This document shows, piece after piece, positions 3,151 to 57,191 of a DNA stretch of 64,000 nucleotides. The stretch is from Lentisphaerota bacterium (GTDB lineage Bacteria > Verrucomicrobiota > Lentisphaeria > Victivallales > Victivallaceae): assembly GCA_015061775.1 (NCBI GenBank), contig SUVY01000006.1, forward strand, positions 1-64,000. The letters run 5' to 3'. Numbering within the stretch: position 1 is the first letter of the stretch; each line of letters starts with the position of its first letter. The notes under the pieces are model-generated. The model made no database searches. It saw only the letters and a program-made list of their open reading frames with translations, and was not told where the DNA came from. The position numbers were made by a program, and so were the translations under genes.

Positions 3151-3254
3151 AAGAACTCCGCTTTTCTTGAAGTGGGAAGGGGGCGCGGGGGAAGGGAGAA
3201 ACCTCTTTTCCCGTGAAAAGAAGTTTCTCCCTTCCCCCGCATCATCTCCCCATA
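3151..3254 (+). repeat. Type 1 palindromic element, copy B
   Basis: AAGAACTCCGCTTTTCTTGA starts the element. Stem 3185-3210 pairs with 3215-3240 (26 positions, one C-A mismatch), loop CCGT. CATCATCTCCCC follows. The stem sequence is the same as in copy H except for the mismatch. It ends 9 bases from the stop codon of the minus-strand lipoprotein gene. Confidence 0.85.
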
Positions 3255-3262
3255 CCAAAAAC

Positions 3263-17260: not shown

Positions 17261-17357
17261 GGAGTTGGGGAGAGAGCGGAAACTTCTTTTTCCGAAAAAA
17301 GAAGTTTCCGCTCTCCCCCCAAGCCCCCCTCTCACCTTCAAGAAAAACGGAGTTCTT
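17261..17357 (-). repeat. Type 1 palindromic element, copy D
   Basis: Stem 17267-17291 pairs with 17296-17320 (25 positions, one A-C mismatch), loop CCGA. The distal end is TTCAAGAAAAACGGAGTTCT, the reverse complement of the start of copy B. It lies 16 bases past the tatD stop codon. Confidence 0.85.
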
Positions 17358-17414
17358 ATACTGTTATAAATTATAAAGTGGTTTTATTATCTTCCATCGC
17401 AGGGAGCAAAGCCT

Positions 17415-25442: not shown

Positions 25443-25535
25443 AAGGGGATTGTTTCTTGGGGATGGGGAAAACTTCTTTTCACGGGAAAAGAAGTTTTCC
25501 CCTTCCCCAAACCCCAACCCTTTTCAAGAAAAGCG
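25443..25535 (-). repeat. Type 1 palindromic element, copy E
   Basis: Stem 25459-25481 pairs with 25486-25508 (23 positions, one T-T mismatch), loop ACGG. The distal flank TTTTCAAGAAAAGCG matches the other copies. Unlike them it lies upstream of the gene beside it (mraY). Confidence 0.85.
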
Positions 25536-25876
25536 GGATACTTTTTTTCCCTCGGTGGGGTGGTTAGTCCCATCCGGGAAAAGCGGGATACTTAGCTGGT
25601 GCTGCTCTGCGCGGGAAAGTGACGGATAATGACGGAAAACGGCGTCACTTCCGCGTGGAAACAACTGTTGCGGCAAAAAGCAAAAGCACCAGAAAAAAGC
25701 AGCGGTACACAAGTGTACCGCAGATAAGTTGTAATATACTTATCCCTGTGACAGGGAAAAAGTTGTGTGTGTCCGGCATCTGACTTTCCGGCTGACTTAT
25801 ATATCTGCGCCGATCATCGGCGTTTTCTCAGTCAGCCATTCCGTTGAATGCCACGCCCCGACTGTCTGTGCTTTTC
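25536..25876. other. Gene-free stretch with several small repeats
   Basis: No gene is supported. It holds a 15-bp direct repeat (GAAAAGCGGGATACT at 25528-25542, spanning the element border, and at 25578-25592), a 9-bp palindrome GCGGTACAC-AA-GTGTACCGC (25702-25721), a 7-bp palindrome (25808-25822, CGCCGAT-C-ATCGGCG), and a 49-bp tandem shift of the lipoprotein 3' end (see 25823-25897). Confidence 0.6.
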
Positions 25877-31665: not shown

Positions 31666-31739
31666 AAAAAAAAATAAAAAAAATAAAAATAAAAGGCTCT
31701 GTTCCCAACAAAGGTAGGTAAAAGTAAATAAAAAAGTTT

Positions 31740-31841
31740 TTCCGCTTTTCTTGAAAGGGTGAGAGGGGCGCGGGGAGAGAGGGAAAACTTCTTTTCTCGT
31801 GAAAAGAAGTTTTCCCTCTTTCCCCGCATAATCTCCCCATA
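31740..31841 (+). repeat. Type 1 palindromic element, copy G
   Basis: Begins TTCCGCTTTTCTTGAAAG. Stem 31770-31796 pairs with 31801-31827 (27 positions, one G-T wobble), loop TCGT. ATAATCTCCCC follows, as in copy B. It is the longest stem of the family. Confidence 0.85.
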
Positions 31842-36007: not shown

Positions 36008-36772
36008 ATGAGCAGAAAAGTAATCATCGCCGGAAACTGGAAGATGAACAAAAACGCTTCCGAGGGACGCGCCCTCGTCGAGGCATTGAAAGCCCAGACT
36101 GCGGCTCTCGAGAACGTTGAGATCGTAGTTTGCCCTCCGTTCACCACCATCGGTGCCGCCGTTGAGGCAGCTGCCGGCAGCAACATCGGAGTCGGAGCCC
36201 AGAACATCCATTGGGCAGAGAGCGGTGCTTTCACCGGTGAGATCTCCGCAGATATGCTCAAGACCAGCGGCGTCAAATATGTCATCATCGGTCACAGCGA
36301 GCGTCGCCAGTACTTCGGCGAGACCGACGAGACCGTGAACAAGCGTCTTGCCGCCGCCCTCGCAGCCGGACTTATTCCGATCGTCTGCATCGGTGAGCTG
36401 CTCGAGGAGCGCGAAGCCGGAAAGACCGAGGAAGTGCTCTCCACCCAGATCCGCGGCGGACTTGCCAACGTCAGCGCAGAAGATGCCGCCAAGATCGTCA
36501 TCGCCTACGAGCCCGTCTGGGCGATCGGAACCGGCAAGACCGCCACTCCTGAGATGGCGCAGGCCGCCCACTCCTTCATCCGCGCCGAGCTCGCCGCGAT
36601 GTTCGGAACCGAGACCGCAGAAGCCATGCGCATCCAGTACGGCGGCAGCATGAAGCCCGCCAACGCCCGCGAGCTGGTCGCCCAGAAAGACATCGACGGA
36701 GGCCTCATCGGAGGCGCCGCTCTCGATGCCGAGAGCTTCCTCTCACTCATCCGCGAAGCTATGGGATGCTAA
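36008..36772 (+). CDS. tpiA: Triosephosphate isomerase
   Basis: 254 aa, normal length. It interconverts dihydroxyacetone phosphate and glyceraldehyde 3-phosphate in glycolysis. GNWKMNK (K12), VIIGHSERR (catalytic His), AYEPVWAIGTGKTA (catalytic Glu and the flexible loop) and QYGGSMKPANA are all present. The ribosome site AAAGGAAAAG precedes the ATG. secG follows after 22 bases. Confidence 0.97.
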   Translation: MSRKVIIAGNWKMNKNASEGRALVEALKAQTAALENVEIVVCPPFTTIGAAVEAAAGSNIGVGAQNIHWAESGAFTGEISADMLKTSGVKYVIIGHSERRQYFGETDETVNKRLAAALAAGLIPIVCIGELLEEREAGKTEEVLSTQIRGGLANVSAEDAAKIVIAYEPVWAIGTGKTATPEMAQAAHSFIRAELAAMFGTETAEAMRIQYGGSMKPANARELVAQKDIDGGLIGGAALDAESFLSLIREAMGC

Positions 36773-36794
36773 CTCCAAAAGAGGATAAGTCATA

Positions 36795-37193
36795 ATGTTA
36801 CTGGTTTTTCTCTATGCACTTGTAGTGGTGGTTTCGCTCCTGCTGATCGGACTCATCCTCATCCAGCCCGCCAAATCCGGCGGAATGGGTGCCGCTTTCG
36901 GCGGAGTCGGTGAGTCTGTCTTCGGCGGAAAAGCCGGCAGCCACCTCACCAAAGCCACCGTCTGGATGACCGCACTCTTCTTCGTGCTGTGTCTCGCCCT
37001 CGCGGTGCTTATCGGACACGGCTTCAAGGTCGAAAGCGGAGACGCCGGACTCGAAAAAGAGCTGTCAGCCAAGAAGGTCGAAACCGTCGAAACCAAAGCC
37101 GCCGAAACCAAGGTCGAGGCGAAAAAGGCGGAAGCAAAAGCGCAGACCAAAGCTCCCGCAGCCAAACCGGCAGCAAAGAAAGCGGCCAAGTGA
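36795..37193 (+). CDS. secG: Preprotein translocase subunit SecG
   Basis: 132 aa. Two membrane segments (about 3-23 and 55-75) flank the SecG loop (LIQPAKSGGMGAAFGGVGESVFGGKAGSHLTKAT), with a Lys/Ala/Glu-rich tail (85-132) that is longer than in most SecG proteins. It supports SecYE in protein export. The tpiA-secG order is common in bacteria. An AAGAGGATAAG ribosome site precedes the ATG. Confidence 0.93.
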   Translation: MLLVFLYALVVVVSLLLIGLILIQPAKSGGMGAAFGGVGESVFGGKAGSHLTKATVWMTALFFVLCLALAVLIGHGFKVESGDAGLEKELSAKKVETVETKAAETKVEAKKAEAKAQTKAPAAKPAAKKAAK

Positions 37194-37210: not shown

Positions 37211-37981
37211 ATGAAGGTTGCGAAGCGCGTTTTACTTCTGATATTATCCGGAGCGGCTCTGATGCTTTACGGCAGAGAGCCCTCCTTCGGAGATATCAAA
37301 GTGAAACTCAGCTTTGAACATGCTCCGACCTACCGGACACGAACCGGAGGCGTGATAAACGGCAGTTCCCTGTTCGACAACGAACAGTATCTCGCGGTCG
37401 AAGCAATATACAATCCCGGAGTGGTCACCGAAAACGTGGTGAACCGCAAAGGGAAACAGATATCATCTCCGCAGGCAGCTTCCAACGCCTGGCTGGACGG
37501 AGTTGAGATGAAAGTGCTGGTCGCTTATCCTGAAGTAACAGGAAGGACCCGCAAAGAGACGGTTTACGGTCTGTTCAGCGGAAAGACCACGTTCTGGTCG
37601 ATCCGCCTGGATGGAAAAAAACATACGGCAACCATGTTTGTTCCTCCGCAGCTTCTTGCGCGCTATACTAATATACGCGCCCGCTCACCGCGCAAGAGCG
37701 ACGGCAAGATCCCGCGGAGCAGCTACCGGTTGTCAACCCGCGATTTTTTCGTTGAGGTGATCTTTACGACGCGGGATGGAAAAGAGCTGGGCAGAGGTTA
37801 TTGCCACGTTGACGCAGCGCGAACAGTCAACGAAAAAGATGCTGTTTTCCGGCATTTGGAGTCCCGCTTGGGCAGCAGGATCGTGGAGGGAGCCGTATTA
37901 TCACGCGATCTTTCGCCGTGGGCATTGATAAATCCTGAACGGTACGACTTTATAAGTCCTCCGGGAGGAACAAAAAAGTGA
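37211..37981 (+). CDS. Exported protein, Amuc_1102-like
   Basis: 256 aa. It begins with a signal peptide (KVAKRVLLLILSGAALMLYG, cleavage near residue 22). The mature part is beta-rich (DIKVKLSFEHAPTYRTRTGG, WLDGVEMKVLVAYP, VEVIFTTRDGKELGRGY). It lies directly upstream of the PilM-like gene, as Amuc_1102 does in Akkermansia (transcript order 1102-1098), and the general features resemble that pilus-like protein. The link is by position and general sequence feel, so moderate. A hairpin with no strong T-tract (37987-38020) lies between it and the next gene. Confidence 0.6.
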   Translation: MKVAKRVLLLILSGAALMLYGREPSFGDIKVKLSFEHAPTYRTRTGGVINGSSLFDNEQYLAVEAIYNPGVVTENVVNRKGKQISSPQAASNAWLDGVEMKVLVAYPEVTGRTRKETVYGLFSGKTTFWSIRLDGKKHTATMFVPPQLLARYTNIRARSPRKSDGKIPRSSYRLSTRDFFVEVIFTTRDGKELGRGYCHVDAARTVNEKDAVFRHLESRLGSRIVEGAVLSRDLSPWALINPERYDFISPPGGTKK

Positions 37982-37986
37982 TTTTC

Positions 37987-38020
37987 AGCCGCAACGCGGG
38001 TCAAAAACCTGCGAGCGGCT
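37987..38020 (+). terminator. Hairpin between the Amuc_1102-like and PilM-like genes
   Basis: AGCCGC (37987-37992) pairs with GCGGCT (38015-38020), then CGCGGG with CCTGCG inside an internal loop. Only TTTA follows, so it may attenuate rather than stop transcription. Confidence 0.4.
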
Positions 38021-38072
38021 TTATGCAGTTTTATAAGTTTAGATAATATACAAAGTAAAACAGGGAAATCTT

Positions 38073-39887
38073 ATGGCTAAGGAAAACAGAGTTCTGGCGA
38101 TAGATGTGGGCGCAGACAGTCTGAAAATGGCTGAGTTCACTTATACCGCAAACGGCGGTATGGTGATGGATAAGTTTGCGTTCCGCCGCATCGATGTTCC
38201 GATCGAAGGAGAGGAAGAGCCTCCGACATTTGCAGAGATCTACAACTCCATGCTTGCAGAGTATGGTTTTACCGCAAAGAGCGTGCGTCTGTCGCTGTCG
38301 GTGCAGTCGGCGTTTCTGCGTCTTTCCAAGCTGCCGGCGATCATGGGCAGCACCGGAGCGATCGCCAAAGTCGTCGAATATGAGGCAAAGCAGACCGTTC
38401 CGTATGCGATGAACGAGATCGAGTGGGATTATCAGCTTCTGCTCCATCAGTGGGAAGAGAGCCGCGATGTGACCGATGCCGACGGCAACATTGAGCGTGT
38501 TACCGAGAGCAAAGAGGAGTACGAAGCGCTTTTCACTGCGATGAAGACAGATAACATCACTCCTTACACTGATGCCGTTCTCGACTCAGGCAAGCGCGTG
38601 GAGTCAGTCACCATCGCTCCTGTGGCACTCTACAACGCCGCGAGCGCATCCAACCAGATCAACGGAGAAGAGTGTGTCATGCTGCTCAATATCGGCAGCC
38701 GCGCGACCAGTCTTATCATCGCCGACGGAAAACGTGTGTTTCTCCGCAGTATTCCGATCGCGGGATACACCATCACCAGCCAGATCGCCAAAGAGTTCAG
38801 CATCAAGATCAGCGAGGCTGAGGATCTCAAACGCCGCTACGGTTTCGTCGCTCTCGGAGGAGCTTATGAAGAGCCCGAGTCCGAGCTTGCAGCGATGATT
38901 TCAAAGATATCCCGTAACGTCATGACCCGTCTCCACGGAGAGATCAGCCGCTCCATCAACGTCTGGCGCTCCACCCACGGCGGACGTCAGCCCGGCCGCG
39001 TGCTTCTTGCCGGAGGAGGTTCGACTATGACTTACGTTCCCGAGTTCTTCAATGAGAAACTCAGGATCGATGTCCAGTACCTCAACACCTTCGCCGTGAC
39101 CGCTATCGGTTCCGGAGTCGAAAAAGATGAGCTTCAGAGCACCGCGCTCACCGTGCAGGAGCTGCTTGGTACTGCGCTCGAAGCCATGCCCAATCTGCCA
39201 GTTTCGATCTCACTTCTTCCGCGAGCGATCCGCAAGCAGCACGAACTTGACCGCCGCAAACCGTATCTCTATGCTTCCAGCGCGATCCTGATCGTCTGTC
39301 TGCTCTTTACCGCGGTCGCCATCAGAAGCCTGCGCGGCTTCAACGAGGAGCGCGTCAAGCGAGTTCAGGCAGAGGTGTCAAAGGCCGAAGCCAAACAGCG
39401 CGAGATCAATGCGCTTATGGGAGAGCTCAACTCCAACAAGGGCGGATACGAGAGTCTCCGCAATTACATCACCCAGCGCAACCAGTGGGGAGTGGTGATG
39501 AACGAGCTCAACCGTCTTACTCCCGACACCATGTGGTACACGATGATCGAGGGATTGGCAGAGCCGCCTCCGGCTCCCAACGCGGACGGAAGTTCTCCTG
39601 ATGAGCAAAACTCCAACTCCGGCAGCGGGGACGGAGAGTCCCGCGACGGCGTCCAAGCTCAGCTCACCAAGGTCTCCGCTATCAGCGAGATCAAATATCT
39701 GCGTCTGCGCGGATGCACACTTATTCTCGCCCCCAATGCAACGCTCCAGGAGCAGGGGTTCAAAGAGAGTCTCAAGGATAACCCGATATTTGAGTCCGCG
39801 GACTTCCGCGACAGACGTGTTGTACCGGGTACAAACCTCACCGGATTTGACATGATCGTCAAACTGCGTAATCCGATCAAGAAGTAA
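38073..39887 (+). CDS. PilM-like pilus protein with PilN-like C-terminus
   Basis: 604 aa. Residues 1-350 form a PilM/FtsA-type actin-like domain (VLAIDVGADSLKMAEF at the start, LLNIGSRATSLIIADGKRVF, RVLLAGGGSTMTYVPEF). A membrane segment near 396-417 follows, then a periplasmic coiled coil and a PilN-like domain with a low-complexity Pro/Ser/Gly linker (about 495-530). Fusion of PilM and PilN is the pattern of Amuc_1101 in Akkermansia. It should be the cytoplasmic and inner-membrane part of a type IV pilus-like alignment complex that joins the secretins downstream. Confidence 0.8.
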   Translation: MAKENRVLAIDVGADSLKMAEFTYTANGGMVMDKFAFRRIDVPIEGEEEPPTFAEIYNSMLAEYGFTAKSVRLSLSVQSAFLRLSKLPAIMGSTGAIAKVVEYEAKQTVPYAMNEIEWDYQLLLHQWEESRDVTDADGNIERVTESKEEYEALFTAMKTDNITPYTDAVLDSGKRVESVTIAPVALYNAASASNQINGEECVMLLNIGSRATSLIIADGKRVFLRSIPIAGYTITSQIAKEFSIKISEAEDLKRRYGFVALGGAYEEPESELAAMISKISRNVMTRLHGEISRSINVWRSTHGGRQPGRVLLAGGGSTMTYVPEFFNEKLRIDVQYLNTFAVTAIGSGVEKDELQSTALTVQELLGTALEAMPNLPVSISLLPRAIRKQHELDRRKPYLYASSAILIVCLLFTAVAIRSLRGFNEERVKRVQAEVSKAEAKQREINALMGELNSNKGGYESLRNYITQRNQWGVVMNELNRLTPDTMWYTMIEGLAEPPPAPNADGSSPDEQNSNSGSGDGESRDGVQAQLTKVSAISEIKYLRLRGCTLILAPNATLQEQGFKESLKDNPIFESADFRDRRVVPGTNLTGFDMIVKLRNPIKK

Positions 39888-39908
39888 GGCAGGGGAGGAA
39901 CTGAAGAA

Positions 39909-41288
39909 ATGAACCGTTTTGTAAAAGACAACTTGATTTTGGTTATCTCCATCGGTCTGACCGCGGTGGTGGCACTTGCGCTGCTGATCTACGGAATAAT
40001 CGAGTGGGCGCACATCGACAGTCTCATGGACGAGACAGAGAAACTGCGCGGCAAGATCTCATCGATCATCCGCGTCAAACCCGCTCCGGTGGACGGAAAC
40101 AAAGAGCCCATCACCAAAGATACTCAGGAGTATGCCAAACTCTACAAGAGTATTTCCGGTGTATTTGATACTCCGATGCGTCCCGCCAGGAACGCCTTCC
40201 TGAAGGTTCTCTACAACATGAAGGACGGAGACGACTACGAAGAGAAAGCCAGAGAGTTTCTCGATAAATATAACGAGCGCGTCAAGAGCGATGCTCCGGT
40301 AGTCGAGCAGCGTATGGCGTGGGAGAGACTGCGTCTGGAATTCAAAAACTGGGATGCCGCTGTTGCCGCATTCTGCAAGGCCTCCGCCGGAGACCCCTTC
40401 CTGAATTTGAACAACACCGCCGAGAGTCTCGAGGTCGAGCAGGCATTTATTCCGTCTTACCGCAACGATACTGTGCTGCAGGAGCTCAATATTCTGCGCA
40501 ATCCCGGAGAAGACAAAGAGATCAGCGGTTTCCTGCATAACGTCCGCACCTATCTCGAGAGCCGCCTGGGCGACCGCCTGAATACTCTGGAAGGCAACAG
40601 CAGCTCAGACAGATCATTGTACCACTTCGGATTTTCCGCCAGCGGAGACTCTTCCGGAGAGGGAGCAAAGACCGGCTATACCAAAGCTGATTTCCCGATC
40701 ATCGCCCGTCATGCGGCGATCCTGTGCGACGTCATCGGACGCATCGCCGACTCCAAGGTGGAAAGCTTCAACGGAATCGCCATCCGCGGAGCCGCTCCCG
40801 AGGGGCTCGGGTCGAGTTTCACCGAAGAGAACGGATGTCATATCGCCCACTACACCTTCATGGTGCACGGTTCACTTGACTCCATCCGTGAGCTTGCCGC
40901 AAGCTTTGACCGCGCCCGTCAGGATCAGCGTTTCTACATAGTCCGCAGCGTATTCCTCTATGAAGACAAAACCGCCAAGAGCATAAAAACACTTCTGGCG
41001 TCCGAAAGCGACGCAAGCAATGCGCAGAGCAATAACGCGCAGGTCTCTCAGGAGAGCGGAGGTCTCTTCGGAGGCGGACGCCGTGCCCGTCTCGCCCGCC
41101 AGCGCAAAGCCGAAGAGGAGCAGCGCGAGAGCGAGCAGGAGAGAATGCGCAAGGCCGAAGAGGAAGAGATCAGAAAGAAAGAGGCGAGTCTCGAGCCTCA
41201 CGAGCGTACCGGCTATGCTGATCCCGTCATTGAGGGCGGAAACAGCGTCAAAGCGATCTTTGATATTGATTACATTGAGCGAAGATAA
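39909..41288 (+). CDS. Amuc_1100-like pilus-associated membrane protein
   Basis: 459 aa. A single N-terminal membrane segment (about 9-31) is followed by a coiled coil (about 35-55) and two ferredoxin-like lobes typical of PilN/PilO proteins, ending in a charged tail of KAEEEQRESEQERMRKAEEEE type (about 390-430). The order PilM, this gene, a Zn/Ca protein and a secretin matches Amuc_1101, 1100, 1099 and 1098. Amuc_1100 is the Akkermansia protein known for its TLR2 activity; whether that property carries over cannot be judged. A GGGGAGG ribosome site precedes the ATG. Confidence 0.65.
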   Translation: MNRFVKDNLILVISIGLTAVVALALLIYGIIEWAHIDSLMDETEKLRGKISSIIRVKPAPVDGNKEPITKDTQEYAKLYKSISGVFDTPMRPARNAFLKVLYNMKDGDDYEEKAREFLDKYNERVKSDAPVVEQRMAWERLRLEFKNWDAAVAAFCKASAGDPFLNLNNTAESLEVEQAFIPSYRNDTVLQELNILRNPGEDKEISGFLHNVRTYLESRLGDRLNTLEGNSSSDRSLYHFGFSASGDSSGEGAKTGYTKADFPIIARHAAILCDVIGRIADSKVESFNGIAIRGAAPEGLGSSFTEENGCHIAHYTFMVHGSLDSIRELAASFDRARQDQRFYIVRSVFLYEDKTAKSIKTLLASESDASNAQSNNAQVSQESGGLFGGGRRARLARQRKAEEEQRESEQERMRKAEEEEIRKKEASLEPHERTGYADPVIEGGNSVKAIFDIDYIERR

Positions 41289-41299
41289 GGGGTGATAAA

Positions 41300-42628
41300 G
41301 TGGATTTCATCAACAAACATTACGAAAAACTCATTCTGCTTGCAGTACTGATAATATTTGTTATCGGAATGGTCTTCGTTCTCGGAACCCTTGACAAGAC
41401 CAGCGAAGTCAAAGACACCGACTTGAAAATACCGACCCGCAGCGCGGATTACGAGGGAACTGCATCAAAAGAACCCAAGAGCGAAGATGTCTGGAAATCC
41501 AGCAACTTTGCGTGGCATCGTGCCCAGGCGCGTAAAGCTGCCAATGCAGAGGTGTGTTACAGCGATCTTGTGACATTTGATTCGGTCGCGCTCTGCCCGT
41601 TCTGCAACAAGCTTGTGCCCATCGCGGCATTCAACGACAAAAAGTGTCCCAATGCCGGATGCAACAATATACTCAAAAAGGCTCCGGACCGTCCCAAGTT
41701 CCGCCGCAACATCATTACCGCCGATGACTCCGACGGAGACGGAATGAAGGACCTCGATGAGAGCAAATACGGCCTCGATAAAGGAGATCCCAAAGATGCT
41801 CTGTACGATAAGGACGGAGACGGATTTTCCAACTACTTTGAGATCGTTTCCGGAACCAATCCCGACAACTTCCGCAGCCATCCTCCGCTTTGGACGAGAT
41901 TGCGCGTCGTGGATATGAGAACTGTCGAGCTGCCGATAAGCTTCAGAGCGGTCAGCGATAACGGAAGCAATAAGCCCGAGGATTGGGATTGTCAGTTCAA
42001 CATCACCAATATCGACCGCAAGACCGGTAAGGTAAGACTCCACCGCCGCACCAAGAAGCCGCTGGTATCGACCCGTATGATCCGTATCAATGAAACCATG
42101 GATATCGAGGGTACTGAGTTCCGTCTGGTCAAGATCGACCGCATAATCAAGACCAGAACAGAAAAAGCCGATGCCAAAAAGAACAGCACCGGAAACGAGA
42201 AGGACAAACTGATCGACGAGTCTATCGCCTACTTCACCAAGGTAACTCCGCGCGGAGACAAGTTCGACAACCTCACCATGCAGGTAGGCAAGCCGGCGTA
42301 CTCACCTGATGTGCGTCCGATATTTGCCGACGACGGATTGCTTCCTGACGAGCGCAAGAAGCCTGAAAACTTCATGTGTTTTGCCGAGGGTCAGCGTTTC
42401 CAGCTCGGAAGAGGCAGAAACATCGAGAGATACGTTGTCATCTCCTTTGATGAGAAGAGCAAAACCGTCGTTCTGCATCGCGACAGGGTCCCTGCAAAAC
42501 AGGATCCGAAGGTCGATGTGAACGGCAAGGAAATGAAGGTCACAGCCGAGGGCGGAATTCCGGAAGATTCACGTATTGTTCCGGTTGAAGCCAAGGCTGG
42601 CAACGCCGGCAATTTTTCTGAAAATTGA
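41300..42628 (+). CDS. Amuc_1099-like protein with zinc ribbon and calcium loops
   Basis: 442 aa from a GTG start with an AAGGGGTG ribosome site. An N-terminal membrane segment (about 10-30) is followed by a zinc ribbon CPFC...CPNAGC (about 98-120) and two calcium-loop motifs, DDSDGDGMKD and DKDGDGFSNYFE (about 146-185), like thrombospondin type 3 or dockerin-type loops. The rest is beta-rich and unassigned. By position it matches Amuc_1099, a periplasmic component of the same pilus-like system. The mix of zinc and calcium sites is unusual for a pilus assembly protein. Confidence 0.65.
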   Translation: MDFINKHYEKLILLAVLIIFVIGMVFVLGTLDKTSEVKDTDLKIPTRSADYEGTASKEPKSEDVWKSSNFAWHRAQARKAANAEVCYSDLVTFDSVALCPFCNKLVPIAAFNDKKCPNAGCNNILKKAPDRPKFRRNIITADDSDGDGMKDLDESKYGLDKGDPKDALYDKDGDGFSNYFEIVSGTNPDNFRSHPPLWTRLRVVDMRTVELPISFRAVSDNGSNKPEDWDCQFNITNIDRKTGKVRLHRRTKKPLVSTRMIRINETMDIEGTEFRLVKIDRIIKTRTEKADAKKNSTGNEKDKLIDESIAYFTKVTPRGDKFDNLTMQVGKPAYSPDVRPIFADDGLLPDERKKPENFMCFAEGQRFQLGRGRNIERYVVISFDEKSKTVVLHRDRVPAKQDPKVDVNGKEMKVTAEGGIPEDSRIVPVEAKAGNAGNFSEN

Positions 42629-42733
42629 CAAAAAAGCGCTCTTTTTCAGGAAAATTGCAAAAAAAATGCGTAAAAACGGATGTTTTTGCTTGAAGCTGAA
42701 GCAATCCGGTGATACAGTATGACGAATGACTCT

Positions 42734-42755
42734 GGACGCACTGTGCCGTGCGTCC
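42734..42755 (+). other. Hairpin in the leader of the secretin genes
   Basis: GGACGCA (42734-42740) pairs with TGCGTCC (42749-42755). It lies in a 257-base gap that also holds a direct repeat GAAAAAGCGTT (42770-42780, 42793-42803). No coding frame is supported. It may be an attenuator or a stem protecting the secretin transcript. Confidence 0.4.
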
Positions 42756-42885
42756 GTGGTTATTTGTTTGAAAAAGCGTTTCAGCAGGCGCCGAAAAAGC
42801 GTTCTGTGATGAGGGAAACGCCGGATTGGTATGAACAAAAAAGCATAGTTATATAAGAAAGTATAATAAAGGAAAGGTACAGCAA

Positions 42886-45486
42886 ATGGGATCGGTGACA
42901 AATACGCCGCGCAGCGTACTTGCTGCAGTGCTGGCTGCCGGATTGTTTGCGGCATTTTCCGGTGAAGCGGCTCCGGCTGAGAAAAAAGCCGGGGCATCGC
43001 AGTATCCGGTGAGCAACAAACACCGCAGCAAGAACTTGAAGAACTACGCCGAACAGGACAGTATCCTTGCCAAGGCTCGTGAAGCTCTCAAAAATGAGAA
43101 ATTTGCGAATGCAGTGGAGGGTTATGAAGAGGTTAAATCCATTCTTGAGCTCGAGATCAAAGAGGTCGATTCGGCTATTTCCAAGGCCCGCTACAAGCAG
43201 GTGCAGGAAGAGTTGTTCCGCGCGAAACGCCTCTGGGGAGCAAGTCTCATGCGTATTGCCCGCCTTGCCGCTGCCGATAAACGTTACGATGATGCTATCC
43301 GTATCGCTTCTGAGGCTGGTGCACGTGACCCCTATGGAAAGGCTGAGCAGGAGCAGTTCATCGATTACTGCGAAGGCATGAAGAAGAATATCCAGCTTGA
43401 GCAGGACAGAAGCATATCCCAGTACAGCGAGGAGCTTAAAGCAAGAGACGAGCGTATCAAGCGTTATCTTGCCAACGCGCGTTCTTTCTATAAGGCACGC
43501 GATTATATGGCTGCCATCACCGAAGTCGAGAAAATCTACTTGCTCGATCCCACAAATGTAGATGCTATCGACCTTTCCGGAAAAGCCTACCGCAAGCTCT
43601 ATTATGTCGCCGATCAGCGCGGACGTATGAATTCCGCGAGAGCCGTTGCCGTTTCAAGCTGGCAGTGGGTCGAGCCCGTGTTCAGTGTCACCGGAACCGA
43701 AAAAGCTCCCCAGTCCGCCGCGAAGAAGGGCGAGAACTCCGGAGCTGAGCGTCTTGAGCAGATCATTTTCCCGTCAGTTGAGCTGGATGAGGCTTCTCTG
43801 CAGGACGTCATCAGCTTTATCCAGGATCGCAGCAAGAGATATGCCAAGGACGGTCTCGGCGGAGTTGTGATCGAAAGCAACCTGCCTGCCGGTGCAAACG
43901 AAGTCACCGTGTCTATGGCACTCAAGAACGTTCCGCTCAGCACCATCCTGCGCGTGCTCTGCCTCAAAGCAGGTGCGTGGAGCGAAGTGTTCCGCGATGG
44001 AGTCAAATATACCGTCGGCGACGAAGGCCGCCGTATCACCCTTACTTCCGGAAGTGCCCAGGGCGGAATGAGTGAAAAGATCTTCTCCGTTCCGGATGTG
44101 CTCTACCGTATGGTTTCCGGCGAGGCGGAGGGCGGAGCATCCGCCGCAGTTGATATTGCGTCTGAGGCTCCTGCCGCACCTGCTGACGGCGAAGGCGGCG
44201 GAGATGAAGGCAGCGGAGAAGAGGGCAGCGGAGACGGCGGTGCTCAGGCAGCGCTTTCTAACGTTGCATCATCGTCCGCTTCAAGCGGTGGACAGCAGAC
44301 CCTGTCCGGAGACAAGTGGAAAGATTGTTTCAGAAACTGGCTGGTTCCCTTCCCCGAAGGTTCATCAGTTTATCACCACGCTGCGCGCGGCGAGATCATT
44401 GTCCGCAACACTCCTGAAAACCTGCAGCTGCTGGAAGTCATCATCGGACAGATCCAGAGCATGACCGACCCGCTGGTCATGATCGAAGTCAAGGCCGTTG
44501 AGATCAGTGAGAGCGATTATCAGGAGCTCGGATTCGACTGGTCGATCGCCAACGTCGGAATATACAATACGCAGTCCGGAGAAAGCACCGGAGCCAACGC
44601 CATCCTCGGAGCCACCAACAAGAACAGCCAGTGGTTCCTTGAGCAGGGTGTCAACACTCTGCTCGGCGGAACACTCTCTCCGACCCGCAGTCTCAGCACT
44701 CCGATCGTCAAGAATTGGAACATCTTCTCAAGTCTCTTCGGAACTCAGACTCCGTTCGGATCAGATATTCCGTTCACCGTCAATTTGACCATCAACGCTC
44801 TGTGTCAGAACAACCGCACCGAGACGGTCAGCGCTCCGAAAATCATCACCAAAGCCACTCCCGGAAAGGGCGACGACAACCGCGCGATCGTCAACATGGG
44901 TAAGAGCTACTACTTCCCCGAGAGCTGGGATGAGCTTGAAGTCGATATCGAATCGACCGAGAACATCACCAACGTCACGATCACTCCTCCGCAGCCCGAC
45001 TTCGGAGACTCTACCTTCGTCGGTATGCAGTTCAACGTCAAACCCCGTCTGCTCTCTGACAACAAGACCCTTGAAGTTCAGCTCAAGGTCAATGCCAGCA
45101 GCTATGCGGTTCTCGAAGGCTCCGAGGAGATGCCTGAGGATAAGTGGAACCTGCACGTCATCGGAACCCGTGACGGCAAGGCTTTCGACTGGGTTTACCC
45201 GATCTTCATGCCCCGCTTCTACAAACGTAATCTGGATATCATCACCCATATCATCGACGGCGAGACCATCGTAGTCGGAGGAATGGTTGAGGCTCAGACT
45301 CAGGCAGTCAATGATAAGATCCCGTTCCTCGGCGACCTGCCGCTTGTCGGAAGACTCTTCCAGAGCCAGAGCGAGACCCAGAAGCGCACTAATATGCTGA
45401 TCTTCCTCTCAGCCCGCCTGATGAAGAATGACGGCACTCCGCTTAACAGCAGCAAACCGACCGGCATGCCGGACTTCAACCGTTGA
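42886..45486 (+). CDS. Secretin, Amuc_1098-like type IV pilus outer-membrane protein
   Basis: 866 aa. It starts with a signal peptide (residues 1-28), then a helical TPR-like region (about 45-260), N-domains (about 290-530, interrupted by a Gly/Glu/Ser-rich linker of EGGGDEGSGEEGSGD type near 425-445), and a secretin barrel (about 540-850). LGDLPLVGRLF and QKRTNMLIFLSARL near the end are the secretin signature. It forms the outer-membrane pore. An AAAGGAAAGG ribosome site precedes the ATG. The next gene encodes a second secretin. Confidence 0.8.
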   Translation: MGSVTNTPRSVLAAVLAAGLFAAFSGEAAPAEKKAGASQYPVSNKHRSKNLKNYAEQDSILAKAREALKNEKFANAVEGYEEVKSILELEIKEVDSAISKARYKQVQEELFRAKRLWGASLMRIARLAAADKRYDDAIRIASEAGARDPYGKAEQEQFIDYCEGMKKNIQLEQDRSISQYSEELKARDERIKRYLANARSFYKARDYMAAITEVEKIYLLDPTNVDAIDLSGKAYRKLYYVADQRGRMNSARAVAVSSWQWVEPVFSVTGTEKAPQSAAKKGENSGAERLEQIIFPSVELDEASLQDVISFIQDRSKRYAKDGLGGVVIESNLPAGANEVTVSMALKNVPLSTILRVLCLKAGAWSEVFRDGVKYTVGDEGRRITLTSGSAQGGMSEKIFSVPDVLYRMVSGEAEGGASAAVDIASEAPAAPADGEGGGDEGSGEEGSGDGGAQAALSNVASSSASSGGQQTLSGDKWKDCFRNWLVPFPEGSSVYHHAARGEIIVRNTPENLQLLEVIIGQIQSMTDPLVMIEVKAVEISESDYQELGFDWSIANVGIYNTQSGESTGANAILGATNKNSQWFLEQGVNTLLGGTLSPTRSLSTPIVKNWNIFSSLFGTQTPFGSDIPFTVNLTINALCQNNRTETVSAPKIITKATPGKGDDNRAIVNMGKSYYFPESWDELEVDIESTENITNVTITPPQPDFGDSTFVGMQFNVKPRLLSDNKTLEVQLKVNASSYAVLEGSEEMPEDKWNLHVIGTRDGKAFDWVYPIFMPRFYKRNLDIITHIIDGETIVVGGMVEAQTQAVNDKIPFLGDLPLVGRLFQSQSETQKRTNMLIFLSARLMKNDGTPLNSSKPTGMPDFNR

Positions 45487-45502
45487 TGAGGAGTTTTGAA
45501 AT

Positions 45503-47962
45503 ATGAGAAAAATCAATAAATGCACTGTGATACTCCTCGCCGGTTCAGCATTCCTTGCAGTTTCGGCAAAGGAGAATAAGAGTTCATGGGATAAGAGCGT
45601 TGATAAACAGATCGCAAACGCTCCTGCGCAGTCTGCGCTCACTGAGAGCGATCTGCGCGCCACCCGCAACCGCACGGATATCGGCCGTCAGGAGGTCATC
45701 CAGCGCGGAGATGCCTGGGTCAAACAGGCAAATGCGGCTTTCCAGCGCGGAGAGTTCCATGAGGCTGTAAAACTTTACATCAAGGCGAAACAGGAGTTCT
45801 CCAAGTTCAGTTCTCCGGTGTTTGTACGTCAGATCTCTTTCTGCCAGCGCAGCATCGACAGCTGCTACAACGAGCAGGCTGTGCGCGATATGGCTGAGGC
45901 AGACCGCGTAGCTTCCAACAACGATTTTGAGACTGCTATCAAGATCTGCAAAGAGGCTATCAAATTCTGTCCGGAGCGTGCGGAAGAGCTCGAGGAAAAA
46001 ATCGCTTTCTTCGAGAAGCGCAAAGCCGCTTTCGACTTCGAGCACTCAACTTCGATCGACGTCCTCAATCCCAACAAGAAGGACCAGGACTATCAGATAC
46101 AGATCCTGCTTGAGCAGGGCCGCAAACTGATAACCCAGAGAGAGTATGCCAAGGCTATCGCCAAATTCAACAGCGTTCTTCTTATCGATCCCTACAATGA
46201 CGACGCCAACCAGAACCTGCTCGCCTGCTACAACCGCGTGACCGATCAGGGCAATCAGCGCCGTTACAATACCCGTTACCGTCTGATGAGTGAAGCGGCG
46301 TGGAAATTCTCCTCTCCGGTTCTTCCTGAAGTCAACCAGCCGACCCGCAACCTGCTGGGAACTGCCGGACGACTCAAAGATGGCAGCAAAGTCAGGAGCC
46401 CGCTCGAGGAAAAACTTTCAAAAATCGTGATCAAGTCTCTGGAGCTTCCTGAGATGAGCATCGCCGATGCGATCGCTACCATCAGAAATCAGAGTGTTTC
46501 CAATGATCCCGAGCGTCAGGGAATCAACATCGTCTATCTCGAACCCAAGCAGGCATCCGGAGATACCGCTGCCAAGCCCGCCGCGAACAACGCGGACGGA
46601 GAGGCGGCTCCGGCAGCCAACGATAATGCTGCCGAGGAAGAGGATGCAGGCAAGACCATTCCTCAGATGAACTTCTCCAACCGTACTTTGAAGGAAGTTC
46701 TGGAAGAGATTTGCAAAGCCGCCAAGCTGAGTTCTCCGCGCATTGAGCACGATATCGTGGTGATTTCTCACAAAGAGATTCCAAGCGTGGATCTTGAGAC
46801 CAAGCTTTTCCGCACCGAAATTCCGAACTACCGCGATCCTGTGACATTGCAGAAGCAGTTTGAGAAAGAGTGGAACATTCCGTTCCCGAAGGGAGCTGAG
46901 CTTTACTACCATCCCAACATCTGTACTCTGGTGGTGAAAAACACCCGCCGCAACCTCGATCTTATCGGTGCTGCGCTGGAGAAGTACTACACCGGCAGCG
47001 AAAGCACTCCGATGGTTCAGATCCGACTCAAAGTCATCGAGATCAGCCAGAACGACCTCAACGAGCTCGCGTTCAACTGGTCCTACGGAGTCAATACTGT
47101 TAAGACCTCCAGCACTTCCGAGCAGGATCGTCTCACCAGCAAGACCACTCAGATCGCTGAAAACAATCAGCTTCTGCGTCACTACTTCGATGCCAACAAC
47201 GGCTCCAATGATCCGATCGCCGACCAGACCCTCGGATTCAGCTGGAGCAACAGCGACGGAACCTATTTCAGAGCTTCGATGTACGCCCTCAACCAGGCGG
47301 ACAGCGCAGATACCCTCTATTCACCCCAGGTGACCACTCTGGTCGGAGTTCCTGCGACGGTTTCGATGCAGACTCAGCGTACCTTCCCTGAGGACTGGGA
47401 GCTGATCGACTACGAGACCAGCAGCGAGGGCAACACTCAGATCATCTCAGTGACTCCGTTCCCGAACCTCGACAACGTGCAGAATCTCGGAATGAACTTC
47501 TCTATCACTCCGCGTCTCATCAACAGCACTTCCGGAGAGGGTTCAGAGGGCCGCAAGCTGATCGAGATCAATGCAGACTTCGTCAAGAATCCGATCAAGA
47601 CTTTCAGCGGATGGTACCGTTACGATGCCCGTTACGCCGAGGATGACTCAATCGACGGAGAGTATTACCAGATGCCGATCTTCAACGAGCGTCAGTTCAA
47701 GACTCTGGTCACTCTCTATGATGGAGAGACTGTGCTGCTGACCGGTATGGCAGTCGATACCAACGAGATCGTCCATGACAAGATTCCGATTCTGGGAGAC
47801 ATTCCCTTCATCGGACGCTTCTTCCAGTCTCGCTACACCAAAGCGACCAAGAGCAATCTGCTGGTGTTCGCCACCTGCCGTTTGGTCAAGGCTGACGGAA
47901 CTCCGCTCTATCCGTCATCACAGTCACCCCACGGTGAGTTTGATTTCGGAAGAAATTACTGA
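45503..47962 (+). CDS. Second secretin in tandem
   Basis: 819 aa with the same layout as the gene before it: signal peptide, TPR-like helical region (about 70-260), N-domains (320-500, with an Ala/Asn/Glu-rich linker near 360-385) and a secretin barrel (510-800). LGDIPFIGRFFQSRYTKATKSNLLVF gives the secretin end. Overall identity to the first secretin looks low, so this is an old duplication or a functional partner rather than a recent copy. The gap is 16 bases with GAGGAG upstream. A strong terminator follows. Confidence 0.8.
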   Translation: MRKINKCTVILLAGSAFLAVSAKENKSSWDKSVDKQIANAPAQSALTESDLRATRNRTDIGRQEVIQRGDAWVKQANAAFQRGEFHEAVKLYIKAKQEFSKFSSPVFVRQISFCQRSIDSCYNEQAVRDMAEADRVASNNDFETAIKICKEAIKFCPERAEELEEKIAFFEKRKAAFDFEHSTSIDVLNPNKKDQDYQIQILLEQGRKLITQREYAKAIAKFNSVLLIDPYNDDANQNLLACYNRVTDQGNQRRYNTRYRLMSEAAWKFSSPVLPEVNQPTRNLLGTAGRLKDGSKVRSPLEEKLSKIVIKSLELPEMSIADAIATIRNQSVSNDPERQGINIVYLEPKQASGDTAAKPAANNADGEAAPAANDNAAEEEDAGKTIPQMNFSNRTLKEVLEEICKAAKLSSPRIEHDIVVISHKEIPSVDLETKLFRTEIPNYRDPVTLQKQFEKEWNIPFPKGAELYYHPNICTLVVKNTRRNLDLIGAALEKYYTGSESTPMVQIRLKVIEISQNDLNELAFNWSYGVNTVKTSSTSEQDRLTSKTTQIAENNQLLRHYFDANNGSNDPIADQTLGFSWSNSDGTYFRASMYALNQADSADTLYSPQVTTLVGVPATVSMQTQRTFPEDWELIDYETSSEGNTQIISVTPFPNLDNVQNLGMNFSITPRLINSTSGEGSEGRKLIEINADFVKNPIKTFSGWYRYDARYAEDDSIDGEYYQMPIFNERQFKTLVTLYDGETVLLTGMAVDTNEIVHDKIPILGDIPFIGRFFQSRYTKATKSNLLVFATCRLVKADGTPLYPSSQSPHGEFDFGRNY

Positions 47963-53765: not shown

Positions 53766-53821
53766 ATATATGAAACAGTTTGTTTATACCGATGGATACT
53801 GCCGACAGGATAAAAAGTATT

Positions 53822-53918
53822 TCGCTTTTCTTGAAGAGGGATGGGGGCGCGGGGGAAGGGAGAAACTTCTTTTCTCGTGAAAAGAAGTTTCTCCCTTCCC
53901 CCGCATAACATACTCCCA
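53822..53918 (+). repeat. Type 1 palindromic element, copy H
   Basis: Starts TCGCTTTTCTTGAAGAGGG. The stem 53849-53874 with 53879-53904 is perfect over 26 bp, loop TCGT. It ends 6 bases from the signal peptidase stop codon on the minus strand. It is the cleanest copy of the family. Confidence 0.9.
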
Positions 53919-53923
53919 CATCA

Positions 53924-54466
53924 TCAAAAAAGCGGAGAACCTGCTATTCTCGCCGCCCTCACCTGTCCGAACTTATGGACTCTGACATGCTGACTGCGGT
54001 TGTCTCCAACGGCGAAGTAGTGCCCGGGTTTGACGATGGTGCGCGGAGTGTTCCAATAACTGATATAGTGGACATAAGGCTCCTTTACCGCCTTGCCGTT
54101 GCGGAAGAGGATGCCGTCACGGAAAAATATCTCATCTCCCGGAACTCCGACGATGCGTTTGAGAAAATATACTCCGTCCGAGTATCTGATGATGACGACG
54201 TCGCCGTACTGCGGCTCTGAAAAGAGATATCTCAGTTTCCAGCAGAAGGTGAACCCTTTGCGCGGAAAGGTCGGCATCATGCTTTCCCCCTCTATAAAGC
54301 AGGGGATAAGCAGGAATTTAAAGACGATGAACGCCAGCAGCGCGACAGCTCCCATGCGGATGAAGAACGCCCTGCCCGGTTTGGGAAAAAAGAACTCTTT
54401 GACTTCGGCGCGTCCCGTGCTGTCACCGCTGCGGTGCGCCGACAGAATACGGTTCCAGAGAGACAT
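53924..54466 (-). CDS. lepB: Signal peptidase I
   Basis: 180 aa, at the short end for the family. One membrane segment (about 37-58) is followed by G60-E-S62-M-M-P-T with the nucleophile Ser62, then K103 (YFLKRIVGVPGD) as general base, and the VGDNRS block. The last box is degenerate (QHVRVHKFGQVRAARIAGSP). It cleaves signal peptides of exported proteins. It shares a TAATG overlap with the PilT gene upstream and is the last gene of that run; hairpin copy H follows. Confidence 0.9.
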   Translation of the reverse strand: MSLWNRILSAHRSGDSTGRAEVKEFFFPKPGRAFFIRMGAVALLAFIVFKFLLIPCFIEGESMMPTFPRKGFTFCWKLRYLFSEPQYGDVVIIRYSDGVYFLKRIVGVPGDEIFFRDGILFRNGKAVKEPYVHYISYWNTPRTIVKPGHYFAVGDNRSQHVRVHKFGQVRAARIAGSPLF

Positions 54467-55605
54467 TACCAGAGTTTCTTCTTCTTTTTGACCGTGGCGG
54501 GATCAATACCCTGAGCCCGCAGACGGCGTTCTTCTTCTTCCGCTTCCATCTGGTGGACGAAGCGTGTCTTGTCGCTCGCCTTCATGTACGCCTCTTCTGC
54601 GGAGATGTTTCCGGCGTCATACTGGATCTGGATGGAGTTATCCATTGACTGCATTCCTTTACCGCCTCCGGCGTCGATGATGGTGCGGATATTGGATATC
54701 TGACCCTCGCGGATGGTGTTGGGCAGACCTTCGGTCCAGAGCAGGATCTCGTGGACGGCGACACGTCCTCCGGACAGTTTACGGCAGAGCAGCTGACTTA
54801 CGATACCCTTGAGACAGGACGCGAGCATGGTGCGGATCTGCGCCTGTTCATCCGACGGAAAGGCATCGATGATACGGTCGATGGTCTTGGGAGCGTTGTT
54901 GGTGTGCAGCGTGGCAAAGACCAGCATACCCATGGTGGCGCAGGTGAGTCCGAGACGGATGGTTTCGTTGTCACGCATCTCACCGAGCAGGATGATATCG
55001 GGGTCTGAGCGCATCGCTCCGCGCAGGGCGTCTGGAAAGCTGCGGCTGTGGACTCCGACTTCGCGGTGGACGATGGTGCAGTTCTTGTTCTGATGAACGA
55101 ACTCGATCGGGTCCTCGATGGTGATGATGTGTTTGCTGGTATTGTTGTTGATGTAGTCGATCATGGCGGCGAGGGTGGTGGATTTACCGCTTCCGGTAGG
55201 GCCGGTCACCAGAACAAGTCCGCTGTGATAGGTGCATATCTCCTTGAGGATCTCGGGAAGTTTCAGTTCTTCGATAGTGAGGATCTTTGAGGGGATCTGA
55301 CGCAGAACTGCGCCCATTCCGTGATAGTTGTAGAGGTAGTTGCAGCGGAAACGGGCAAATCCGGGGATCTCATGCGCGAAGTCGAGGTCGCGTTTGTTCA
55401 TGAATTCATCCCATCTCCACACGGGGAGACAGATCTCGCGGAGCATGTACTCCATCTTTTCCGGAGTTATCGGTTCTTCTTCGAGGTTCTGGATATTTCC
55501 ATGGATACGTGCTCTTGCTGGCAGGTTGATCGAGAGGTGAAGGTCCGAGCCGCCCATCGAGAGCATCTGCCGGAGATATCCGTTGATCATCGGTTCGTCG
55601 TTCAT
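54466..55605 (-). CDS. pilT: PilT-like twitching ATPase
   Basis: 379 aa. G135-P-T-G-S-G-K-S-T is the Walker A motif, followed by Asp box (ITIEDPIEFVH), Walker B (DPDIILLGEMRD) and His box (TCATMGMLVFATLHTN). PNTIREGQISNIRTIIDAG is the PilT signature of retraction ATPases. It should power type IV pilus retraction. It lies 14 bases after the second PilT-type gene. The pilus-like gene cluster is about 6.5 kb away on the other strand. Confidence 0.9.
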   Translation of the reverse strand: MNDEPMINGYLRQMLSMGGSDLHLSINLPARARIHGNIQNLEEEPITPEKMEYMLREICLPVWRWDEFMNKRDLDFAHEIPGFARFRCNYLYNYHGMGAVLRQIPSKILTIEELKLPEILKEICTYHSGLVLVTGPTGSGKSTTLAAMIDYINNNTSKHIITIEDPIEFVHQNKNCTIVHREVGVHSRSFPDALRGAMRSDPDIILLGEMRDNETIRLGLTCATMGMLVFATLHTNNAPKTIDRIIDAFPSDEQAQIRTMLASCLKGIVSQLLCRKLSGGRVAVHEILLWTEGLPNTIREGQISNIRTIIDAGGGKGMQSMDNSIQIQYDAGNISAEEAYMKASDKTRFVHQMEAEEEERRLRAQGIDPATVKKKKKLW

Positions 55606-55619
55606 AATGATATACTTCC

Positions 55620-57191
55620 TTACTTTTTGGCTGCGGCGAGTTTCTTGGCTTCTCTGGTTGCGTGCAGCTGTTCCATCTGAGAGATGGCGACTGAGTCAAC
55701 CATGTGCGGACGTCCCGCTTCGTAGGTGATGAGCCCCTGGGTGTATTTTTCGAGGATGCACTGGTCCATGGTGCACATTCCCTGCTTGATACCGACCGAC
55801 ATGGTGGATTTGAGCTGGAATGCTTTGCCTTCAGAGATGATGTTGCTGACCGCCATGGTGTTGAGCATTATCTCATAGACGAGTGTGAGGCCTCCGAAAC
55901 CGTCCGGAATAAGTTTCTGACAGATGATTCCGCGCATTGAACCTGCGGTCATCGCACGGATCTGGGGCTGCTGCGCCGGAGGAAACACATCGAGCAGACG
56001 GTTCAGCGTGTTGGGAGCGTCACCGGTGTGCATGGTTCCGATGACCAAGTGTCCGGTTTCAGCGGCGGTGATGGCGTTTTCGATGGTCTCGAGGTCGTGC
56101 ATTTCACCGATGACGATGACGTCCGGGTCTTCACGCAGCGCGGCTTTGAGGGCGCGTGAGTAGCTTGCGGTGTGCTGTCCGACTTCGCGCTGGGTGACCT
56201 GGCAGCCCTTGGACAGCTGGAGTATCTCGATAGGATCTTCGACGGTGATGACGTGATCCTGGCGTTTGGAGTTGACGATATCGACCAGACTTGCCAGGGT
56301 GGTGGTTTTTCCGGCTCCGATGGGGCCTGTGACCAGAACGAGACCGTTGGTGTAGTCGAGCAGACGCGCGATGGTCGGAATATCTTTTTCCATATATCCG
56401 AGCTCAGCGAGAGAACAGATGTGGTCAGGAACCAGACGGTAGCTGCCCGCGGTTCCGTCTTTTTCCTGCATCAGACAGACGCGGAAACGGTTGATTCCGA
56501 CTTCGAGAGCGTATCCCATATCCTGATCATTGACGAACTGCTCTTTGCTGGCGGCTGAGAGCAGCGAGGTGTTGAGCCTGAAAGAGTCCTCAGCGGTGAG
56601 GACATAACTGTCTATGCGTTCGATTTGAAGGCTGCGGCGCACAAAAGGCATGGAGCCTCCTGATATATGCAGATCGCTGCATCCCAGATGGCGCAGACAG
56701 CTCAGGAGATAGATCATTCTTCCTGCGAGCTCTTCGTCCGAGAGATTGGAAGTATCCGAAAAACTGGGCAGGTCGGCATAGCTGTTGATTTGTGAATAGT
56801 CGATATCAAAGGGCTCAAAGTGGAGTGCCGCCTGATCCTGAACGGTCTTTTCAAAATTTCCTGAGCCGGAGTTCTGCGGAGAAGAAGAGTATTCCTCTTC
56901 ATACTCCTCATCGTAATCTTCCTCAATGTCATCAAACGGCGGAAGCTCTCCGGTCTGAGCCTGTTCGACGGCGTAGTCTGCGAGGGTCTGTATCTGTTCG
57001 AGCAGTTCGGCAGCCTCCTCTTCTGAGGCGTCTCCTGCCATGCGGTCAAGGACGTTCTGGGCGTACTCGGCAAGTCCGCTGCCTTCGGGCAGTTTGTGGA
57101 AAAGTTTGAATCCGTCTGAGGCATCCAGCGCGCCGTTGTCTGCCAGCGCGTAGATGAACCATTGGATTTCAGCTGGGGTGGTGTCCGGCAT
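55620..57191 (-). CDS. Second PilT/PilU-type ATPase with acidic N-terminus
   Basis: 523 aa. The first 160 residues are a non-ATPase extension, with an acidic stretch (DDIEEDYDEEYEEEYSSSP, about 104-122). The PilT-type ATPase domain follows: GPIGAGKTTT (Walker A), ITVEDPIEI, Walker B DPDVIVIGEMHD and ITAAETGHLVIGTMHT. The remainder (AVSNIISEGKAFQLKS) resembles the PilT-like C-terminus. It could be a PilU-type accessory retraction ATPase or an adapted paralogue. The acidic N-terminus may mediate protein interaction. It is the first gene of the three-gene pilT-lepB run. Confidence 0.8.
   Translation of the reverse strand: MPDTTPAEIQWFIYALADNGALDASDGFKLFHKLPEGSGLAEYAQNVLDRMAGDASEEEAAELLEQIQTLADYAVEQAQTGELPPFDDIEEDYDEEYEEEYSSSPQNSGSGNFEKTVQDQAALHFEPFDIDYSQINSYADLPSFSDTSNLSDEELAGRMIYLLSCLRHLGCSDLHISGGSMPFVRRSLQIERIDSYVLTAEDSFRLNTSLLSAASKEQFVNDQDMGYALEVGINRFRVCLMQEKDGTAGSYRLVPDHICSLAELGYMEKDIPTIARLLDYTNGLVLVTGPIGAGKTTTLASLVDIVNSKRQDHVITVEDPIEILQLSKGCQVTQREVGQHTASYSRALKAALREDPDVIVIGEMHDLETIENAITAAETGHLVIGTMHTGDAPNTLNRLLDVFPPAQQPQIRAMTAGSMRGIICQKLIPDGFGGLTLVYEIMLNTMAVSNIISEGKAFQLKSTMSVGIKQGMCTMDQCILEKYTQGLITYEAGRPHMVDSVAISQMEQLHATREAKKLAAAKK

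Follow-up and report, generated by a model that had tools for sequence, protein, structure and literature searches.

Paralogous secretins paired in a MUL2-type pilus cluster of Victivallales, possibly two subunits of one machine

We describe a gene cluster of the Amuc_1098-1102 (MUL2) type that ends in two paralogous secretin genes, and we propose, with a probability of roughly 0.45, that it encodes a type IV pilus-like machine in which a single inner-membrane platform is served by two obligately kept secretins that share one mixed channel. The cluster occupies positions 37211-47962 of the window (the whole 64,000-nucleotide stretch that was analysed), which is part of contig C27 in a 2.70 Mb, 98% complete metagenome-assembled genome of a gut-dwelling relative of Victivallis in the family Victivallaceae.

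The pilus cluster and its genome

The open reading frame list and family searches resolve this region into six consecutive plus-strand genes that keep the MUL2-type order 1102-1101-1100-1099-1098 and add a second secretin at the end, in agreement with the first-pass annotation, which had read the series exported protein, PilM-PilN, PilO-like protein, Zn/Ca protein and secretin as Akkermansia-like. The first gene (37211..37981) encodes an exported Amuc_1102/MUL2A-like protein whose Akkermansia counterpart is pilin-like (profile A4 of relatives vs. PDB 7DSZ, E=2e-16). It is followed by a PilM-PilN fusion homologous to the Amuc_1101 family (38073..39887; NF045709 402 bits, PF11104 93 bits), a PilO-like membrane protein homologous to Amuc_1100 (39909..41288; profile A5 of relatives vs. 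6LAD, E=6.5e-40) and an Amuc_1099-like protein with a zinc ribbon and a TSP3 repeat (41300..42628; PF18884). The fusion scores below the NF045709 equivalog cut-off (at least 650 bits), which 0 Victivallaceae genomes pass, the PilO-like protein falls below that of NF038287, the Amuc_1100 family (34.7 vs. at least 180 bits), and the Amuc_1099-like protein is a borderline member of NF042425 (50.0 bits at a cut-off of 50). A possible terminator or attenuator hairpin, a consensus match only, lies on the plus strand at 42733..42756, between the Amuc_1099-like gene and the first secretin. Upstream on the same strand are tpiA (triose-phosphate isomerase, 36008..36772), which adjoins the cluster in most Victivallales loci, and secG (36795..37193), which lies 17 bp ahead of the cluster and is kept in 45 fetched loci; this arrangement (36008-37193) links the pilus operon with the gene for a subunit of the Sec translocon.

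The two secretins, Sec1 (42886..45486, plus strand, 866 aa) and Sec2 (45503..47962, plus strand, 819 aa), are full length and diverged (24% identity), as had been annotated. Both carry the full secretin core (PF00263 82.8 and 77.7 bits, respectively, vs. a cut-off of 27.5) and match NF042912 (Amuc_1098) best among families, at 239.6 and 225.8 bits, scores that fall short of its equivalog cut-off (at least 750 bits) and mark them as homologues, not equivalogs. AlphaFold2 models (mean pLDDT 73 for Sec1 and 72 for Sec2), read for domain layout only in view of their low pTM, share a helical TPR part (residues 44-259 in Sec1 and 52-269 in Sec2), periplasmic N domains (285-528 and 300-502) and a secretin core (~530-846 and ~504-795), with Vibrio PilQ (6w6m) as the top Foldseek match of each. 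The genes are 16 bp apart, a GAGGAG ribosome site precedes Sec2, and a scan of the junction found no terminator-like site on the plus strand. Both secretins are under purifying selection and neither is a pseudogene (dN/dS 0.19 for Sec1 and 0.21 for Sec2, compared with 0.17 for PilM); core and C-terminal tail are retained in each, with neither core decayed.

A PilT retraction ATPase (54466..55605, TIGR01420 422 bits) and a second PilT-family ATPase with an N-terminal extension (55620..57191, 353 bits) are encoded on the minus strand, about 6.5 kb from the cluster as annotated earlier, and family searches of the window found neither PilB nor an N_methyl pilin, again in line with that reading. 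Elsewhere in the genome, two different PilB-type ATPases stand side by side on contig C92, followed by PilC (L028:4970-8398), and the 2.7 Mb encode 61 proteins with N_methyl prepilin signals (e.g., C27:74434-74496). The genes for PilB, PilC, PilT and prepilins are thus all present, with a putative functional link to the Amuc_1098-1102-like cluster.

The same genome holds a type II secretion system (T2SS)-like cluster with its own GspD on contig C46 and a Tad-like set on contigs C54 and C73. On C54, a 728-aa protein that fuses two PilT-type ATPase domains in tandem adjoins CpaB/RcpC and FHA-TadA (L029:4794-6980), and similar-sized frames with PilT matches were found across the class. Two more tandem pairs of short secretin-like genes (~515-690 aa), from another subfamily, lie on contigs C31 (L009:10391-13686, the two genes overlapping by 4 bp) and C99 (L010:797-4438); their first members are 35% identical to each other and their second members 38%, compared with ~23% between first and second, which brings the genome to three tandem pairs of secretin genes, belonging to two kinds. 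We also observed a dispersed, self-complementary intergenic repeat of ~100 bp in the window (3151-3261, 17265-17392, 25459-25550, 31731-31841 and 53808-53937) and at the ends of several contigs.

Distribution and origin of the secretin pairs

Surveying the family, we found Amuc_1098-type secretins in 57/60 Victivallaceae genomes, nearly always as two adjacent open reading frames; the closest named relative, the sheep-colon Lentisphaeria MAG RGIG5525, is 69-74% identical in both secretins. An NF045709 PilM was likewise found in 57/60 of these genomes, with exactly one wherever present. The order from exported protein through PilM, PilO and 1099 to Sec1 and Sec2 recurs in the opened Victivallaceae and order-level clusters, contig permitting, with Sec1-Sec2 spacings of -7 to +69 nt in the Victivallales loci examined, and no loss of either secretin was seen in well-assembled Victivallaceae clusters.

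Comparing single with double secretins across Verrucomicrobiota and Lentisphaerota, as the first-pass annotation had suggested, gives two throughout the order and mostly one in other Lentisphaeria, Kiritimatiellae and Opitutia; single-secretin versions of the same cluster occur in class families f8, f9, f12, f13, f57, f64 and f65 and in Oligosphaera ethanolica. Tandem pairs were also found in families f10 (inferred to be Lentisphaera-like) and f60, in Chthoniobacterales/Spartobacteria and in one Methylacidiphilales MAG, with recurrent ATGA overlaps between the paired genes in Chthoniobacterales and Methylacidiphilales. Two f10 genomes, G233 and G265, carry three tandem Amuc_1098-type secretins (L058:1-7058 with L090:11455-13911; L074:4819-12422). 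A fused double secretin suggested by a 1954-aa frame in another genome (G122) was rejected, as the locus holds two separate open reading frames. The locus labelled Methylacidiphilales (L135) encodes PilM, a 1099-like protein and two secretins, whereas the study that described MUL2 synteny reported MUL2 as not detected in that order (PMC13174399); the mismatch may reflect divergence beyond that study's search, or MAG labelling. Searches of an open-access library turned up no description of paired Amuc_1098-type secretins.

In the trees, Sec1 and Sec2 form reciprocally monophyletic clades that mirror the species, each a starred clade, i.e., two sets of orthologues. Judged from these sequences, the doubling is old and kept in all well-sampled relatives, and traces back to a single duplication at the root of the order Victivallales. 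AU tests were run on a reduced set of 29 rows under a simple model (LG+G4), with the groups defined only once the first trees had been inspected. They rejected a common origin of the first copies for the three major groups taken together (p = 2e-7) and likewise for three pairings: Victivallales and Chthoniobacterales (9e-5), Methylacidiphilales-type and Chthoniobacterales (6e-7), and Victivallales and f10 (0.002). Since shared origins are rejected by these tests, the phylogeny indicates at least four independent tandem doublings in the phylum, with the shallow f60 pair probably a fifth.

One platform and two secretins

One Amuc_1101-type PilM per genome, together with paired PilB also in single-secretin families, argues for one machine. 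The PilB pair occurs throughout the class, often with PilT behind it; because it also accompanies single secretins, it does not signal a second full machine. For the same reason, and with PilT copy number following no clear pattern, we rejected a co-doubling of motor and secretins, and PilB doubling is unrelated to secretin doubling.

That two subunits share this platform is favoured by the single PilM, by the tight operon and by the co-variation of Sec1 with Sec2. Correlating distance matrices across 29 genomes, with PilM, PilO and 1099 distances partialled out, we obtained a partial r of 0.57 between Sec1 and Sec2 (jackknife 0.51-0.64), compared with only 0.14 and 0.09 between these secretins and the T2SS GspD of the same genome. 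Split by domain, the two secretins co-vary like with like, and their N domains behave as one module (0.63-0.73), a pattern that holds under jackknife and with uncorrected distances, although this domain-level signal comes partly from a few lineages (lineage-specific rate shifts) and weakens within g1, a genus in which the N domain of Sec1 also tracks GspD. Gene conversion of the N domains was rejected, with identity at 0.238 both within and between genomes. Partial correlations of PilO with Sec1 (0.39) and of 1099 with Sec2 (0.25) did not clearly reappear when sampling was widened to the order and were set aside.

The best reading of these sequence patterns is a channel made of, or alternating between, two paralogous subunits of one machine. 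Sec1 and Sec2 would be produced together and would most likely build one heteromeric outer-membrane channel between them; its periplasmic N-domain rings would hold both subunits and dock on a single platform of PilM-N, the PilO-like protein and the Amuc_1099-like protein. Through this channel a filament would be extended by the PilB paralogues and retracted by the window's PilT, and the doubling would have turned a symmetric homomeric ring into a ring with two distinct subunit surfaces. More tentatively, and at somewhat less than even odds, we suggest that such a natural hetero-oligomeric secretin on a single pilus platform was reached several times in Verrucomicrobiota by tandem duplication, with up to three subunits in Lentisphaera-like genomes.

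To our knowledge, all solved secretins are symmetric homo-oligomeric rings, which counts against a mixed ring. Nor did we find Sec1 and Sec2 losing ancestral residues in a complementary fashion, which also counts against it: over the 114 positions that single secretins conserve, losses in the two were positively, not negatively, associated, and complementary degeneration was rejected with no signal of subfunctionalisation. Two separate homomeric pores could instead stand on the one platform, one serving the pilus and the other a different filament, substrate or condition, much as XqhA and XcpQ do in the Pseudomonas Xcp system, for which a hybrid form with PaQa as an alternative subunit is documented (PMC6567927). 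We regard this as a serious possibility, if an appreciably less than even one: both proteins have complete secretin architecture, the second Akkermansia copy is an orphan gene far from its cluster, in E. coli around half of the homomers that underwent duplication remain separate homomers (PMC7480870), and domain-level co-variation could stem from two pores facing the same partners. Against it stand the tight, invariant operon pairing without losses in well-assembled Victivallaceae clusters, and a co-variation of Sec1 with Sec2 that exceeds that with the non-partner GspD. Sequence evidence slightly favours the mixed ring, and compared with the first-pass option of a pilus pore beside a pore for a separate secretion system, a pair of subunits on a single platform is favoured.

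It is unlikely that only one paralogue makes the membrane pore while its partner builds a stacked or accessory ring in the periplasm; the pair has diverged, with ancestral residues lost at different sites (13 of the 114 only in Sec1 and 17 only in Sec2), but core, C-terminal tail and purifying selection persist in both. That the second secretin belongs to a separate T2SS or is a decaying copy is highly improbable even though a T2SS-like cluster exists in the genome, because that cluster has its own GspD, three congeners without detectable GspD (G015, G035 and G044) keep both secretins, dN/dS is ~0.2, and, across the Victivallales loci that were examined, the second gene is part of the pilus operon. 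The earlier annotation had set against its proposal the case of relatives with one secretin, the second being a pseudogene or T2SS part; instead, the pair runs through the whole order, evolves under purifying selection and persists where GspD is undetectable.

Comparison with known systems

If two subunits do share one channel, a platform that repeatedly gained a second, obligately kept secretin would offer a tractable system for studying how an outer-membrane pore evolves from homomer to heteromer, with relevance to Akkermansia, where a second, orphan Amuc_1098-family copy exists beside a single PilM. The window shares with the Akkermansia MUL2 cluster its gene order and homologous 1102-like, PilM (1101), 1100, 1099 and secretin (1098) genes (PMC4960237, PMC13174399), and Amuc_1098, treated as PilQ, is more abundant than any other outer-membrane protein in A. 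muciniphila (PMC4960237). The window differs in its two tandem, diverged secretins, whereas Akkermansia-type genomes (single PilM in 40/40) have one in the cluster and a second, dispersed family gene distant from it (L056), and in that most proteins of its cluster fall under NCBIfam equivalog cut-offs. With PilQ (6w6m from Vibrio, 6ve2 from Pseudomonas), among the best Foldseek and HMM matches, the window secretins share the core and N domain, but they have an N-terminal TPR part, no AMIN match in Pfam and two paralogues per machine. The Pseudomonas Xcp T2SS, with XcpQ and XphA/XqhA (PMC6567927), likewise combines one platform with two usable secretins; its second pair, however, is encoded away from the locus and regulated differently, whereas the pair described here is ancient and forms one operon.
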